Shown here in pieces: positions 32,168 to 37,150 of a stretch of DNA of 64,000 bases. The notes under the pieces were generated by a model. The model had not been told where the DNA came from. It did not search any database and saw only the letters and a program-made list of their open reading frames with translations. A program made the position numbers and the translations under genes. Within the stretch, counting starts at the first letter, position 1, and each line of letters starts with the position of its first letter. The stretch comes from Fundidesulfovibrio magnetotacticus. GTDB lineage: Bacteria; Desulfobacterota; Desulfovibrionia; Desulfovibrionales; Desulfovibrionaceae. The DNA lies in NCBI RefSeq assembly GCF_013019105.1, contig NZ_BLTE01000001.1:186001-250000 (forward strand), read 5' to 3'.

Positions 32168-32250
32168 CTGCGCCTGCCCTCTTCCGGCTCCGGGCCATGG
32201 ACATATTTGAAGAATATCCATGGCCCGGAGCCGGAAGAGGGCAGGCGCAG
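32168..32250. repeat. Perfect 34-bp inverted repeat
   Basis: Bases 32168-32201 are exactly complementary to 32217-32250, around a 15-base AT-rich centre in which ATATT and AATAT can extend the pairing. This 83-base hairpin is far longer than a normal terminator stem and has no T-run after it. It is non-coding: it lies in the 640-base gap after the acetate transporter. It could be a mobile palindromic element, a transcript-end stabiliser or a protein-binding site. Confidence 0.9.
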
Positions 32251-32289: not shown

Positions 32290-32523
32290 CCGCACACCGA
32301 CACCTTGCCCGGTGAAGCCCGCGAAGCAACTGCCGGGTCCAGGGGGGGGCTCCCCCCTGGCGGGTGCAGGGCAGCGCCCTGCCGGGGTCCGGGGCGGAGC
32401 CCCGGCTGCCGGGGCCTCAGCTTGAAGACAAACCCCGAAGCGGGGTTTGTGGGATACGCTTACGGGCGGCAAAGCCGCAAAGCCGACTTTATCAGCCGCC
32501 TAGGCCCCGGCTGCCGGGGCCTC
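32290..32523. repeat. Mosaic of short palindromic repeats
   Basis: This stretch is made of several hairpins. One unit at about 32311-32363 recurs at 62918-62968 on the other strand. A 19-base palindromic unit beginning CCCCGGCTGCC occurs at both 32400-32418 and 32505-32523. CAAACCCCG and CGGGGTTTG (32429-32449) form a perfect hairpin. The text GGGCGGCAAAGCCG at 32464 also occurs in the repeat block near 42830. This is a BIME/REP-like intergenic mosaic. The rest of the gap to 32669 shows nothing recognisable. Confidence 0.75.
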
Positions 32524-32851: not shown

Positions 32852-33553
32852 ATGTCGGGCGACCACGGCCGCAAGGTGGCCTCCATGTTCGGGCGCATTG
32901 CCGCCTGGTACGATTTTCTCAACCATTTCTTGAGCCTGGGCCTGGACATCCTCTGGCGCGGCCGTCTCGTGGAGCGCATGAACCTGCCCGGAGCGAAGCC
33001 CTGCCGCGTGCTGGACCTGGCCGCCGGAACCCTGGACGTTTCGCTGGAGATCGCAGGGCGTCACCCCGGGGCCTTCGTGGCCGCCGCCGACTTCTGCCTG
33101 CCCATGCTCGCCAAGGGCCGCACCAAGCTGGAGCGCCCCGGACGCATCGCGCCCGTGCAGGCCGACGGGCGCGCCCTGCCCTTCCGGGACGAAAGCTTCG
33201 AAGCCGCGTCCATCGCCTTCGGCATCCGCAACATCATCCCGCGGGCCGAGGCCTACGCGGAGCTATTCCGCGTGCTCAAGCCGGGCGGCAGGCTGTGCAT
33301 CCTGGAGTTCGGCTCTGGCCGCCAGCCTATCCTGGGCGGGCTCTACAGGCTCTACCTGAACCGGCTGCTGCCCCTGGTGGGCCGGGTTTTCTCGCGCGAC
33401 GCGGGGGCCTACCGCTACCTGGCGGACACGATCATGGCCTTCCCCGACGCCGACGGACTGGCCGGGGAACTGGCGCGCGCGGGCTTTGCGCGCGTGGAGT
33501 GGGAGAAGATGGCGCTGGGGATCGTGGTGGTCCACGTGGCCGTCAAGGACTGA
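32852..33553 (+). CDS. ubiE: Demethylmenaquinone methyltransferase UbiE/MenG
   Basis: This encodes 233 residues. The opening MFGRIAAWYDFLNHFLSLGLDILWR, motif I VLDLAAGTLDVS, FGIRNI and LKPGGRLCILEFG are diagnostic of UbiE/MenG. It methylates demethylmenaquinone, the last step of menaquinone synthesis. Motif I reads AAGTLD where most members have a second Gly (TGD), a mild variant. Futalosine hydrolase and polyprenyl synthase genes downstream fit the same pathway. Confidence 0.94.
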   Translation: MSGDHGRKVASMFGRIAAWYDFLNHFLSLGLDILWRGRLVERMNLPGAKPCRVLDLAAGTLDVSLEIAGRHPGAFVAAADFCLPMLAKGRTKLERPGRIAPVQADGRALPFRDESFEAASIAFGIRNIIPRAEAYAELFRVLKPGGRLCILEFGSGRQPILGGLYRLYLNRLLPLVGRVFSRDAGAYRYLADTIMAFPDADGLAGELARAGFARVEWEKMALGIVVVHVAVKD

Positions 33554-33779: not shown

Positions 33780-33871
33780 CGGCACGTGATAGTGCGCGGA
33801 GCGGGCCATGTCCAGCCCGCTTGATGCCGGGGGCAAAGTCCGGTAGTGAGCCTGGGCTTCAACGAATCGTC

Positions 33872-35197
33872 ATGGAGACTGCATTGGTAACGTTCGAGCA
33901 ACTCAAGTCCGGCGAGTCCAGGATCGCCGTGGTGGGCCTGGGCTATGTGGGCCTTCCGCTGGCGGTGGCGCTTGCCGGGCATTTCAAGGTGACGGGCTTC
34001 GACATCAGCCCCCGGCGCGTGGAGCGCCTCAAAAGCGGCGTGGACGACACGGGCGAAGTGAGCGCCGCATCCCTGGCCTCGGCCGACGTGCTCTACAGCC
34101 ACGACCCGGAATGCCTCAAAGGCTGCGGCGTGGTGATCGTCGCGGTGCCCACGCCCATCGACTCCCACCGCAGGCCCGACCTCGCCCCCGTGCGCGGCGC
34201 GTCGATCACGGTGGGCAGGCAGCTTTCCCCCGGCAGCGTGGTGGTGTTCGAGTCCACGGTCTATCCGGGGCTCACCGAGGAAATCTGCGTGCCCCTCCTG
34301 GAGGAGAACTCCGGCCTGGCCTGCGGACGCGACTTCTTCGTGGGCTACTCCCCCGAGCGCATCAACCCCGGCGACAAGGTGAACACCCTGGAGACCATCG
34401 TGAAGGTGGTGGCCGGGCAGACCGACGAGGTGCGCGAACTGCTCTGCAGGCTCTACGGCTCGGTGGTGCGCGCCGGGGTGCATCCTGCCAGCTCCATCAA
34501 GGTGGCCGAGGCCGCCAAGGTGATCGAAAACACCCAGCGCGACCTGAACATCGCCCTGATGAACGAGCTGGCCCTCATCTGCGAGAAGGTGGGCATCGAC
34601 ACCCAGGAGGTGCTGGAGGCCGCTGGCTCCAAGTGGAACTTCCTGCCCTTCCGGCCGGGACTGGTGGGCGGCCACTGCATCGGCGTGGACCCCTACTACC
34701 TCACCTTCCTAGCCGAGGGCCTGGGCCTGCACCCCCAGGTGATCCTGGCGGGGCGGCGCATCAACGACTCTATGGGCAAGCACGTGGCCGAAGTGTGCAT
34801 CAAGCGCCTCATCGCCGCCAAGCGGCCCATCTGCGGGTCCACCGTGGGCGTGTGGGGCCTCACCTTCAAGGAGAACGTCCCGGACTTGCGCAACACCAAG
34901 GTGGTGGACGTAATCCGTGAACTGGGCGAATACGGCGTGAACGTCCTCGTGCACGACCCCATGGCCGCCCCAGAGGAGGCCATGCACGAATACGGGCTCA
35001 CCCTCTCGCCCATGGAAGATTTCAAAGGCCTGGAGGCGCTCATCGTGGCGGTGGGGCACCACGCCTACAAAACCATGGATCCGGCACGGATCGCTGGCTG
35101 CTTCACCGTCCCCGAGGCCGGGCTTGTCATGGACATCCGGGGAGCGCTGGACAGACAACGGGTGCTGGACGCGGGACTGACCTACTGGAGGCTCTAG
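33872..35197 (+). CDS. Nucleotide-sugar 6-dehydrogenase (TviB/WbpA/WecC type)
   Basis: This encodes 441 residues. The NAD-binding site is IAVVGLGYVGLPLAV. Other family landmarks are STVYPGLTEEI, YSPERINPGDK, the substrate-site KVAEAAKVIENTQRDLNIALMNE, the catalytic-Cys region PGLVGGHCIGVDPYYL and GLTFKENVPDLRNTKV. It oxidises UDP-N-acetylhexosamine to the uronic acid for surface polysaccharide, to judge from closest motifs. It ends one base before the candidate selenoprotein gene, so the two are probably co-transcribed, though functionally they seem unrelated. Confidence 0.93.
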   Translation: METALVTFEQLKSGESRIAVVGLGYVGLPLAVALAGHFKVTGFDISPRRVERLKSGVDDTGEVSAASLASADVLYSHDPECLKGCGVVIVAVPTPIDSHRRPDLAPVRGASITVGRQLSPGSVVVFESTVYPGLTEEICVPLLEENSGLACGRDFFVGYSPERINPGDKVNTLETIVKVVAGQTDEVRELLCRLYGSVVRAGVHPASSIKVAEAAKVIENTQRDLNIALMNELALICEKVGIDTQEVLEAAGSKWNFLPFRPGLVGGHCIGVDPYYLTFLAEGLGLHPQVILAGRRINDSMGKHVAEVCIKRLIAAKRPICGSTVGVWGLTFKENVPDLRNTKVVDVIRELGEYGVNVLVHDPMAAPEEAMHEYGLTLSPMEDFKGLEALIVAVGHHAYKTMDPARIAGCFTVPEAGLVMDIRGALDRQRVLDAGLTYWRL

Positions 35198-35198
35198 C

Positions 35199-35420
35199 GT
35201 GGAACTTCTCCGCCTCGTGTGTTCGGGCGACTGCTGAAGAGGCTTCCTGGAAGCGAGTTCGCTTCTGAAGTCCCTGGAGAGCGGCGCCTGCATCGAGGTG
35301 GAGATCGACCCCGCCCAGAGCCGCAAGCTGGAACTGGTGAGCCGCCACCGCATGGCGGATGTGGTCTCTCTGCGTGAACTGGACGGGGGAAGGCTCCTGG
35401 CCACGGTGAGGAAGCGTTGA
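35199..35420 (+). CDS. TusA/SirA-like small protein with in-frame UGA, candidate selenoprotein
   Basis: This encodes 73 residues if the TGA at 35235-35237 is read as selenocysteine at position 13. GGAGG (35187-35191) lies seven bases before the GTG start. The gene exactly fills the gap between the dehydrogenase stop (35197) and the mqnB start (35422). The sequence around the UGA is CSGDC-U-RGFLEAS. It is followed by SLLKSLESGACIEVEID, then alternating strands ending LLATVRKR, which fits the TusA beta-alpha-beta fold with Cys-Sec in place of the CPxP active site. A SECIS-like hairpin begins three bases after the UGA. If read as a stop, only a 12-residue peptide would result. Confidence 0.8.
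35235..35273 (+). promoter_or_regulatory. Candidate bacterial SECIS element
   Basis: After the UGA, an outer stem GGCTTC (35241-35246) pairs with GAAG-T-CC (35267-35273, one bulge). An inner 6-bp stem, GAAGCG (35250-35255) with CGCTTC (35260-35265), closes the loop AGTT. The loop starts 18 bases after the UGA and has G as its second base, fitting the bacterial SECIS pattern. Folding was done by eye. Confidence 0.6.
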
Positions 35421-35421
35421 A

Positions 35422-36141
35422 GTGACCCTTTTGCTGGTCACGGCCACCTGGGCCGAGATGCGCGCGGCCCTGGGGAAGCGGCTGCCGCAGGGGATGCCTC
35501 CGTTGCGCCGGGGACGGGCCAGGGCGTGCCTTGCCGGGCGCGAGGCGCTTCTGCTGGTCACGGGCGTGGGGCCGCTCAACGCCGCCCTGGAGGTTGGGGC
35601 CGCCCTGGAGGCCGCCCGCGCCGAGGGCCTGGAACTTTCGGGGGCGCTCTGCCTGGGCGTGGCGGGCAGTTTCGACTCGGCGCGCGCCCCCCTGGGGAGC
35701 GCGGTGCTGGCCGACGCGGAACTCTACCCGGACTACGGCGTGGCCGGACCCGGCCAGTTGGCGGACGCCAACGACTTCGGCTTCGCCCAGTGGGAGGGGC
35801 CGTCGGGGCGCGTGTTCCAGCGCCTCGGGCTGGTTCCCGGGGAGGCTGCCCGGGCCATGGATCTGGCGTTGCCGGACAACTGGCCCCGGGGCCTGTTCGT
35901 CACGAGCGCCGCCGTCACGGCGTCGGCCGTCCGGGCCGAGGCCCTGGCCGCCCGGCACGGGGCGCTGGCGGAAAACATGGAGGGCTTCGCCCTGGCTCTG
36001 GCCTGCCTCGCGAGAGGCCTGCCTTTTTTGGAGGTCCGGACAATCTCCAACGCAATCGGGGAGCGCGACCGGGCCAATTGGAAACTCCACGAGGCCCTCG
36101 CCGGCCTGGAGGCCGCGCTGGACGCCCTTCTGGGCAGCTGA
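35422..36141 (+). CDS. mqnB: Futalosine hydrolase MqnB
   Basis: This encodes 239 residues from a GTG with GAGGA upstream. It is a nucleoside-phosphorylase-fold protein: LLVTGVGPLNAALEVG, LCLGVAGSFDSA, DYGVAG, ENMEGFALALAC (substrate Glu region) and RTISNAIGERDRANW. These match futalosine hydrolases rather than MTA/SAH nucleosidases. It removes hypoxanthine from futalosine in the alternative menaquinone pathway. Position next to ubiE and the prenyl synthase supports this. Confidence 0.9.
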   Translation: MTLLLVTATWAEMRAALGKRLPQGMPPLRRGRARACLAGREALLLVTGVGPLNAALEVGAALEAARAEGLELSGALCLGVAGSFDSARAPLGSAVLADAELYPDYGVAGPGQLADANDFGFAQWEGPSGRVFQRLGLVPGEAARAMDLALPDNWPRGLFVTSAAVTASAVRAEALAARHGALAENMEGFALALACLARGLPFLEVRTISNAIGERDRANWKLHEALAGLEAALDALLGS

Positions 36142-36178: not shown

Positions 36179-37150
36179 ATGATGAAAGAATTCGCCGAAT
36201 ATCAGGCCCGGGAACTGCCCCTCATCGAAAGCTGCCTCCGCAGCCGCGTGGAGGCCCTGAGCCCCTACGTGCGGCCCACGGCCCAGCACGTCCTGGACGC
36301 CGGAGGCAAGCGGCTGCGCCCGCTGCTCACCATCCTCACGGCCAGGGCGCTCGGCCACGCGGGCGACGACGTGTACCCCCTGGCCTGCTCCCTGGAGCTG
36401 TTGCACTCCGCCACCCTGCTCCACGACGACATCCTGGACGGCGCGGAGCTGCGCCGGGGCAAGCCCGCCGCCCACGTGGCCTTCGGCAGCACCCACACCA
36501 TCCTGGCAGGCGACGCCCTCCTGGCCCTGGCCAACACCATGGTGGCCGCCTACGGACGCCCGGAACTCACCGCCTGCCTCTCCGACGCCATCCTGGCCAC
36601 CGTCACCGGCGAAATCCAGGAGATCGCCCACATCCGCGACATCGGCCTGGGCTACGACGGTTACATGGAGATCATCACCGGCAAGACCGCCTGCCTCATC
36701 CAGTCCGCCTGCCAGGCCGGGGCCATCCTGGCCGGGGCCGGTGAGGAGCAGGTGAAGGCGGCGGGCGACTTCGGGCTCAACCTGGGAGTGGCCTTCCAGC
36801 TGGTGGACGACGTGCTGGACTACGCCTCGCCCTCGGCCGTCACGGGCAAGCCCAAGGGAGCGGACATCCGCGAGGGCAAGCTCACCCTGCCGCTCATCTT
36901 CTACATCGACCAGCTGCCGCCCGGGCAGAAAGAAAGGTTTACAAAAGCCCTGAAAGAGAACATCCTCCCCGACGATGAGACAGAATCCGCCGTGGCCGCA
37001 GTCGTCGCCGGGGGCCACGCGGAGCGTACCAGGGACATGGCTGCGGACTACCTGCTCAAGGCCCGGGACTGCCTGGACTGCTTCCCGGACTCCCCTGAGA
37101 AACGGCTGCTGCTCGCCGCCCTGGAGGGCATGGCCCGGCGCGAAAAATAA
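36179..37150 (+). CDS. Polyprenyl diphosphate synthase (menaquinone side chain)
   Basis: This is a 323-residue trans-isoprenyl diphosphate synthase. The first aspartate-rich motif is LLHDDILD and the second is QLVDDVLDY; GGKRLRPLL is the chain-binding lysine/arginine region. The residues before the first Asp motif (SATL) are small, which permits a long chain such as hepta- to octaprenyl. Two tandem ATGs can start it. Location among menaquinone genes suggests that it makes the quinone side chain. Confidence 0.92.
   Translation: MMKEFAEYQARELPLIESCLRSRVEALSPYVRPTAQHVLDAGGKRLRPLLTILTARALGHAGDDVYPLACSLELLHSATLLHDDILDGAELRRGKPAAHVAFGSTHTILAGDALLALANTMVAAYGRPELTACLSDAILATVTGEIQEIAHIRDIGLGYDGYMEIITGKTACLIQSACQAGAILAGAGEEQVKAAGDFGLNLGVAFQLVDDVLDYASPSAVTGKPKGADIREGKLTLPLIFYIDQLPPGQKERFTKALKENILPDDETESAVAAVVAGGHAERTRDMAADYLLKARDCLDCFPDSPEKRLLLAALEGMARREK

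Follow-up and report, generated by a model that had tools for sequence, protein, structure and literature searches.

Proteins of the TusA/SirA/YhhP type (PF01206; PDB 1dcj, 3lvj, 3hz7) are sulfur carriers of b-a-b-a-b-b fold in which a catalytic Cys opens helix 1, TusA taking its sulfur from IscS and handing it on, and a related domain, YeeD/TsuB, belongs to the thiosulfate uptake protein YeeE-YeeD (8k1r, 8j4c). The connection of a SirA-like protein with selenium dates from 2008, when a selenium-linked SirA subfamily was sought and not found (PMC2432076, PMC5322559). YedF, the sulfurtransferase-like selenium metabolism protein (TIGR03527), has a TusA-like domain and is tied to selD (PMC5322559, PMC2432076), and Lin et al. 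(2015) associated selenium genes with LysR_Se, YedF, a 2-hydroxyglutaryl-CoA dehydratase subunit and a CoA-enzyme activase (PMC5322559). The route by which selenium reaches SelD is called 'incompletely elucidated' in a 2026 review (PMC13188914). The same review lists selenoproteins with a CU motif, in which a Cys immediately precedes the Sec, namely HgcA, SaoC, SaoL, MbdU, KCU-star and CopZ-like form 2.

Here we describe a 73-codon gene from Fundidesulfovibrio magnetotacticus whose product is very probably a selenoprotein and is likely to adopt a TusA-like fold. The gene lies on the forward strand at 35199-35420 of the window, by which we mean the whole stretch of 64,000 nucleotides that was analysed, and its assignment rests on homologues and a structural model. 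It starts with GTG at 35199-35201, preceded by a GGAGG ribosome-binding site at 35187-35191 (forward strand, 7 nt upstream of the GTG, read from the sequence), and ends with TGA at 35418-35420. The only other stop in the frame is the TGA at 35235-35237, codon 13, which conservation in homologues identifies as Sec13 and which comes straight after Cys12 (Cys8-x-x-Asp11-Cys12-Sec13). The 73-residue translation reads VELLRLVCSGDC-U-RGFLEASSLLKSLESGACIEVEIDPAQSRKLELVSRHRMADVVSLRELDGGRLLATVRKR, with RGFLEASS following the U. All neighbours are on the forward strand. Upstream is a gene of the UDP-glucose/GDP-mannose dehydrogenase family at 33821-35197 (the listed frame; the true start is possibly further in), whose TAG ends at 35197; downstream, from a GTG at 35422, is mqnB at 35422-36141, encoding the futalosine hydrolase of menaquinone synthesis (TIGR03664, 180.7 bits against a cut-off of 124.7), so that one base separates the Sec gene from the gene on each side. 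A polyprenyl synthetase homologue follows at 36179-37150, recognised by its frame and by tblastn with the gene of a relative that belongs to Pfam PF00348. The sequence-only reading had claimed that the gap is filled exactly by one frame with a lone TGA at 35235, that a GGAGG precedes the GTG with one base to either neighbouring gene, and that sugar and menaquinone genes adjoin; all of this held, every coordinate it gave was confirmed, and the last arrangement recurs in 31 of the 79 genes read.

To assess the conservation of the UGA, we compared homologues at increasing phylogenetic depth. A search with the single protein in 199 genomes of the window's taxonomic family gave 54 matches, 52 of them with exactly one in-frame TGA and the two stop-free ones due to chance. 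Profile A1, built from 22 members, was positive in 52 of the same 199 genomes (14 of 44 genera), with one TGA in 52/52; at order level it matched 47 of 247 genomes, 46 with one TGA, and added a genome of another taxonomic family (G204), and at phylum level it matched 19 of 395 genomes, 17 with one TGA. Profile A3, built from 33 members, matched 35 of the 395 genomes at phylum level, 32 of them with one TGA; of the other three, one is a canonical TusA and two are chance frames. Altogether 84 genomes of the phylum carry the gene (52 + 1 + 31), and exactly one in-frame TGA is present in all 84. We read 80 of these base by base, yielding 79 distinct genes, while four (G085, G112, G135 and G603) are represented from tables only.

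All 79 distinct genes have Sec at 0 preceded by Cys at -1, and all fit the motif C-U-x-[GAP]. The surrounding positions are less uniform: 75 genes have Asp at -2 and 78 have Gly or Ala at +2, and Cys occurs at -5 in 49, D at -6 in 39 and R at -4 in 33. The reading frame is kept on either side of the UGA in the homologues, and past the UGA and the hairpin region the differences at codon positions 1, 2 and 3 number 55, 50 and 122 (345 codon comparisons from 15 pairs among 6 congeneric species). A chance origin of the frame is excluded by the single in-frame TGA that each of the 84 genomes shows, together with this codon-position bias past the UGA. The homologues thus extend across the UGA, with Sec and no Cys at the equivalent of position 13; homologues with stops elsewhere, which would have told against the sequence-only reading, were not seen in the genes read, the one stop of each match being TGA.

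Bacterial selenoproteins usually, although not by definition, have Cys-containing homologues. The profiles carried Cys at the Sec position and would have given a Cys form an equal score; none was found among the profile matches at the family, order and phylum levels, all within one phylum. A scan of a collection of 84,980 species for the motif with Cys codons returned 15 stretches, with no relative among them, and a scan of the same collection for TGA within the motif returned 10 stretches, of which 8 are family members. Cultured relatives that carry the gene include Fundidesulfovibrio agrisoli SG106 and Halodesulfovibrio spirochaetisodalis JC271. This DNA pattern scan required Cys at -5 and could find just one of the two sequence types. 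No family member was found in viral contigs, which were scanned with one D-Y-R-type pattern, or in the plasmids searched. The gene family spans many taxonomic families of one phylum and is Sec-only in everything found.

Eight stop-free matches, putative Cys homologues, were all examined and rejected, seven of them as chance matches and one as a canonical TusA. The last (G463, L207) has the CPVP motif and was also picked up by the family profile. The match in G195 (L119) is a fragment within a 363-codon frame, which we take to be pseudouridine synthase-like, and those in G114 (L120), G639 (L115), G570 (L116) and G550 (L208) sit within longer frames of 544-1012 codons. In G295 (L118), residues 25-60 resemble the family, but there is a stop immediately ahead, no N-terminal motif, and a 388-codon frame on the opposite side; in G592 (L209) the match covers just 20 residues. 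Two candidates from the DNA pattern scan (L040 and L044), with frames of 25 and 17 residues, were likewise rejected.

The bacterial SECIS model calls for a loop of 3-9 nt, a stem of 4-16 bp, a distance of 16-37 nt from the UGA, an energy of -7.5 kcal/mol or lower and a G within the first two loop positions (PMC13188914). A SECIS-like hairpin at 35248-35267 (forward strand) satisfies this model on loop, stem, G, spacing and energy: its 8-bp stem (35248-35255 paired with 35260-35267) carries an AGUU loop at 35256-35259, 18 nt past the UGA, and its energy is -8.4 kcal/mol. Taken singly the hairpin is unremarkable, as the fold of the whole region has z = -0.70, with 47 of 200 shuffles folding equally well. 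An Rfam search across the window gave nothing. For comparison we took, in each of 66 homologous genes, the best hairpin with a G at loop position 1 or 2, scanning the loop start from 14 to 37 nt. This hairpin averages -8.2 kcal/mol, against -2.8 after synonymous codon swaps within each gene, and 64 of the 66 genes reach -5 kcal/mol or lower, as do 20% of controls. In 60 of the 66 genes the loop starts exactly 18 nt past the UGA. For any one gene the swaps often come close (a median of 6% of swaps reach the observed energy), and there are exceptions, one gene (L095) having no hairpin that fits the model and two (L098 and L127) only an unusual one.

The stem also shows co-variation. Pairing in register amounts to 96.4% in the 32 genes with a 4-nt loop and 91.6% in the 34 with a 6-nt loop, against 36-60% in slid registers, and both sides have changed at 4 of the 7 pairs in the former group and at 5 of the 7 in the latter, against 0-2 and 2-3 when the register is slid. 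The sequences in this test were sorted by loop size after inspection; in 13 additional genes, for which the register was fixed beforehand, 96.7% of positions pair, against 24-63% in shifted registers. The hairpin is significant only by comparison, because of the shared loop position (18 nt, 60 of 66 genes) and the co-variation of the stem; an AGTT loop 18 bases after the UGA had been noted from sequence alone, and while its coordinates held, its significance came only through the homologues. The loop encodes a conserved Ser at +7, and it is possible, by inference, that the conservation of this residue partly reflects the RNA.

The genome holds the complete machinery for selenocysteine, with tRNA-Sec (selC, 79.4 bits), selA (587.6 bits), selB (367.4 bits) and selD (329 bits) all above their curated cut-offs; a second tRNA-Sec match is barely above the cut-off (47.4 bits). 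In 14 control genomes the models for selA, selB, selC and selD pass the cut-off in 1, 2, 5 and 2 genomes. Within the taxonomic family, selB is above the cut-off in 167 of 199 genomes; among hosts of the gene it is so in 48 of 52 inside the family and 32 of 32 outside it, and among non-host genomes of the phylum in 30 of 32. Hence its co-occurrence with the gene adds little, because selB is near-universal in the phylum. Of the four hosts without selB over the cut-off (G014, G022, G077 and G144), three are 67-89% complete, and for G014 the listed completeness is 95%, with the assembly in 430 contigs. An absence of selABCD, which would have refuted the sequence-only reading, was not the case. Its claim of a selenoprotein is supported by the conserved UGA, the co-varying SECIS-like hairpin and the complete selABCD set, and the UGA at 35235-35237 very probably encodes selenocysteine, on the strength of sequence comparison and in the absence of peptide or 75Se data.

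Two further observations concern these genes. The genome's own selD (L163, around 1528, G000:C20) has an in-frame TGA followed by a strong hairpin, and its SelD is likely to be a selenoprotein itself. Two selB-like genes above the cut-off occur in G509, G626, G609, G403, G673, G571 and other members of the phylum.

An AlphaFold2 model, computed from the window protein and 8 relatives, has a pLDDT of 89.6 and a pTM of 0.76, with elements in the order E-H-E-H-E-E and residue 13 as the first of helix 1. In Foldseek the first rank is the YeeE-YeeD thiosulfate uptake protein (4e-4), three chains score E <= 0.001, all of them YeeE-YeeD, and ranks 4 to 7 are YhhP/TusA, a fatty acid synthase, the SirA-like 3hz7 and TusA. 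The top six matches in VIA-align are all of TusA type (Z 11.6, 11.2, 10.4, 9.8, 9.7 and 9.3), followed by Alba at 9.1. At this lower end, where Alba at Z 9.1 is set against a TusA-type match at 9.3, the fold alone separates TusA from Alba narrowly.

By sequence, the window protein matches 0 Pfam families; among the 22 members, PF01206 is matched by 3 at E <= 1 (best 2.1e-6), and in a second scan by 2 of 10 members, both below the cut-off of 28.6 bits. A sequence-profile search of the PDB gave nothing, its best hit being a zinc-finger chain at E 0.034. When aligned by hhalign with 29 TusA domains from relatives, the family gave a local E of 4e-5 (probability 70%) and a global E of 2.7e-4 (probability 18%). 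The global alignment sets Sec on the catalytic Cys of TusA, with a matching D-x-R-G stretch, while the local alignment starts past the active site and its ungapped extension would place Cys12 there instead. We prefer the global alignment because D at -6 and R at -4 then coincide with those of TusA, and Cys12 on the catalytic Cys, our first reading of the alignment, was dropped. The CPxP motif of TusA is absent from all 79 genes. The predicted fold is likely TusA-like, with Sec opening helix 1, and Sec probably occupies the place of the TusA catalytic Cys, although the local alignment differs by one residue. The TusA/SirA fold proposed in the sequence-only reading is thus supported by the model, the fold search, the weak PF01206 matches and the profile-profile alignment.

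When compared with the described systems, the family resembles TusA/SirA/YhhP in a fold shared along almost the entire protein (Z 9.3-10.4) and in an active residue that opens helix 1, after a D-x-R-like stretch in distant members. It differs in having Sec for the catalytic Cys (by the global alignment), an invariant Cys before it and no CPxP, and in that most members scanned have no PF01206 match or a weak one. The YeeD part, which we infer to be residues 375-449 of the YeeE-YeeD chain, is the best fold match of the family model (Foldseek 4e-4, Z 11.6). The Sec gene adjoins a membrane transporter gene in 15 of 79 loci, but there it is TauE/SafE (PF01925) and not YeeE, and no transporter gene adjoins the Sec gene of the window. 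YedF shares the TusA-like domain but has an extra DsrE-like domain and its Cys in CPxP (PMC5322559), whereas the window protein is a single domain of 73 residues with Sec. The selenoproteins with a CU motif share the order of Cys and Sec, but they belong to different protein families, none of which is given as TusA/PF01206 in the table of PMC13188914.

The genomic context varies among lineages. Neighbours were counted by tblastn, since the ORF-based neighbourhoods held spurious antisense frames, and several loci have only 1.5 kb of flank, so that distant neighbours are undercounted. In 31 of 79 genes a UDP-sugar dehydrogenase gene lies upstream and mqnB directly downstream, with a 4-nt overlap with the mqnB start in 12 of the 31. 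Another 15 lie between a gene that we take to be S1-type and a TauE/SafE permease gene, with a double-cubane reductase upstream in the 8 of them that have longer flanks; this double-cubane context resembles the gene set of Lin et al. (2015; PMC5322559). Eight precede a gene that we take to be dusB, seven are near cbiK, and 11 have none of the listed neighbour types (mqnB, TauE, dusB, LysR, cbiK). Seven are directly behind a LysR regulator gene. Three of these regulators were scanned and match NF040786, the 'selenium metabolism-associated LysR family transcriptional regulator' (269.7-273.3 bits against a cut-off of 250); the remaining four were named through similarity to a scanned one. In G587, one of these seven cases, the Sec gene behind the LysR gene is followed by a pair of genes on the opposite strand and then by selD (345 bits) and yedF (223.5 bits), yedF being the fourth gene past the family member, and the link to selD and yedF comes from this genome only. 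Because neighbourhoods vary by lineage, context fixes no single function, and a menaquinone link as the general function was rejected, 48 of the 79 genes not being beside mqnB.

The SECIS hairpin just past codon 13, together with the complete SelABCD set, very probably causes the UGA to be read as selenocysteine, and we propose that the 73-residue protein would work like TusA or YeeD, as a small carrier with a selenolate nucleophile. A donor would supply a sulfur or selenium atom to the Sec13 selenolate at the helix start, the adduct would be resolved by the invariant Cys12 (and by Cys8 too in the window's order), and the atom would pass to an acceptor. The likeliest setting would be selenium/sulfur homeostasis, because some members are LysR-linked, one of them near selD and yedF, and others are beside a TauE-type permease. 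On balance we lean, by a modest margin, towards a selenoprotein of TusA-like fold acting as a sulfur or selenium carrier; the transfer itself is inferred, there being no peptide, 75Se or activity data. The role in sulfur or selenium transfer suggested in the sequence-only reading remains an inference, its selenium side strengthened by the seven LysR-linked loci. A bolder reading, which is possible but likewise inferred, is a selenium-selective carrier, itself a selenoprotein, that serves selenophosphate synthesis. Here a Sec nucleophile beside a Cys would bind selenium preferentially and hand it on, whereas a Cys-based TusA or YedF in sulfide-rich cells would be poorly able to distinguish the scarce selenium from the sulfide that abounds there. 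If true, this would make the selenium supply of the cell dependent on selenium already captured, and would explain the failure to find a Cys form.

The main rival to a carrier is a TusA-fold selenoprotein with a redox role, in which the adjacent Cys and Sec would make selenenylsulfides and reduce them again, or would act as a reductant of disulfides or peroxides, with no chalcogen carried. The adjacency of Cys and Sec, invariant in 79 of 79 genes, and the third Cys at -5 in 49 would suit such a role, a thioredoxin-like fold and a redox motif occur in the majority of characterised selenoproteins (PMC13188914), and one lineage has the gene near a double-cubane reductase and its activase. However, the model is not thioredoxin-like, its fold and the likely position of Sec fit sulfur carriers, and no redox partner common to the lineages was seen in the neighbourhoods of the 79 genes. 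A redox role remains possible and is not excluded. Much less plausible, and restricted to the mqnB-linked group, is a UGA that acts mainly as a selenium-sensing switch, whereby low selenium would cause a stop at codon 13 and a drop in the coupled translation of mqnB. The overlap with the mqnB start in 12 of the 31 mqnB-linked genes, in the form ATGA, and the one-base gap in the window speak for it, but the residues past the UGA are conserved as protein, and the 48 genes not beside mqnB retain the UGA, and all but a few of them the hairpin as well. We consider this switch very unlikely.

The remaining rivals concern the UGA itself. A decayed gene, or a true stop followed by unrelated sequence, could appeal to the hairpin not being significant in a single sequence; against it stand the single in-frame TGA in each of the 84 genomes, the smaller number of changes at codon positions 1 and 2 than at position 3, and a hairpin that co-varies, and this explanation is all but excluded. 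Readthrough of the UGA as a standard amino acid, e.g. Trp or Cys, has no specific support. The Sec machinery is complete, the hairpin carries a loop G and lies at a distance that the model allows (PMC13188914), and there is no sense codon at the UGA position in any of the 79 genes, all of which render such readthrough highly improbable.

The selenoprotein family is real and probably uncatalogued, TusA-like in fold and Sec-only in all that was found; the claim of novelty is limited to the literature and databases searched. Whether the family was already described had been left unsure at the outset, and we found it in no source searched. None of the 119 selenoprotein families in Table 1 of PMC13188914 (2026) is named TusA or SirA, and NCBIfam 20.0, scanned with 22 and 8 members, has no fitting model, giving only weak unrelated matches (best E 0.0091 and 0.048). 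A Sec-containing TusA is unreported in the literature searched, with supplements excluded; the coverage includes PMC12013277, PMC1914089, PMC1794560, PMC9312934, PMC8318568, PMC2398784, PMC5322559, PMC2432076, PMC4607533 and PMC5029168. An unspecified Sec 'sulfurtransferase' is mentioned in PMC8318568, and its identity is not established, which limits the claim. Finders of Cys/Sec pairs require Cys homologues (PMC13188914), and deep-Sep may miss proteins without them, according to its authors; a Sec-only family thus reveals a blind spot of selenoprotein finders that rely on Cys homologues.

Several minor observations were made in the flanking DNA. In one lineage (L083, L085, L175, L176 and others) a double-cubane anaerobic reductase gene (NF040772, scanned in L083) lies upstream, mostly with an activase gene, and there the S1-type gene is upstream of the Sec gene and TauE and what we take to be an FxsA-like gene are downstream. 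Four loci (L174, L215, L216 and L218) have the order Sec gene, dusB, DivIVA-like, YggT-like and MoeA-like, the last three on the opposite strand; the DivIVA-like and YggT-like labels, like that of dusB, are what we take these neighbours to be. A gene of metallo-beta-lactamase fold lies upstream of the LysR and Sec genes in 6 of the 7 LysR-linked loci (8197-8958 in L166). In the window itself, an inverted repeat of 37 nt, with 97% complementarity and a spacer of 9 nt, is found at 32168-32250, upstream of a frame at 32852 that is methyltransferase-like; a direct repeat of 20 nt is found at 32399-32418 and 32504-32523.
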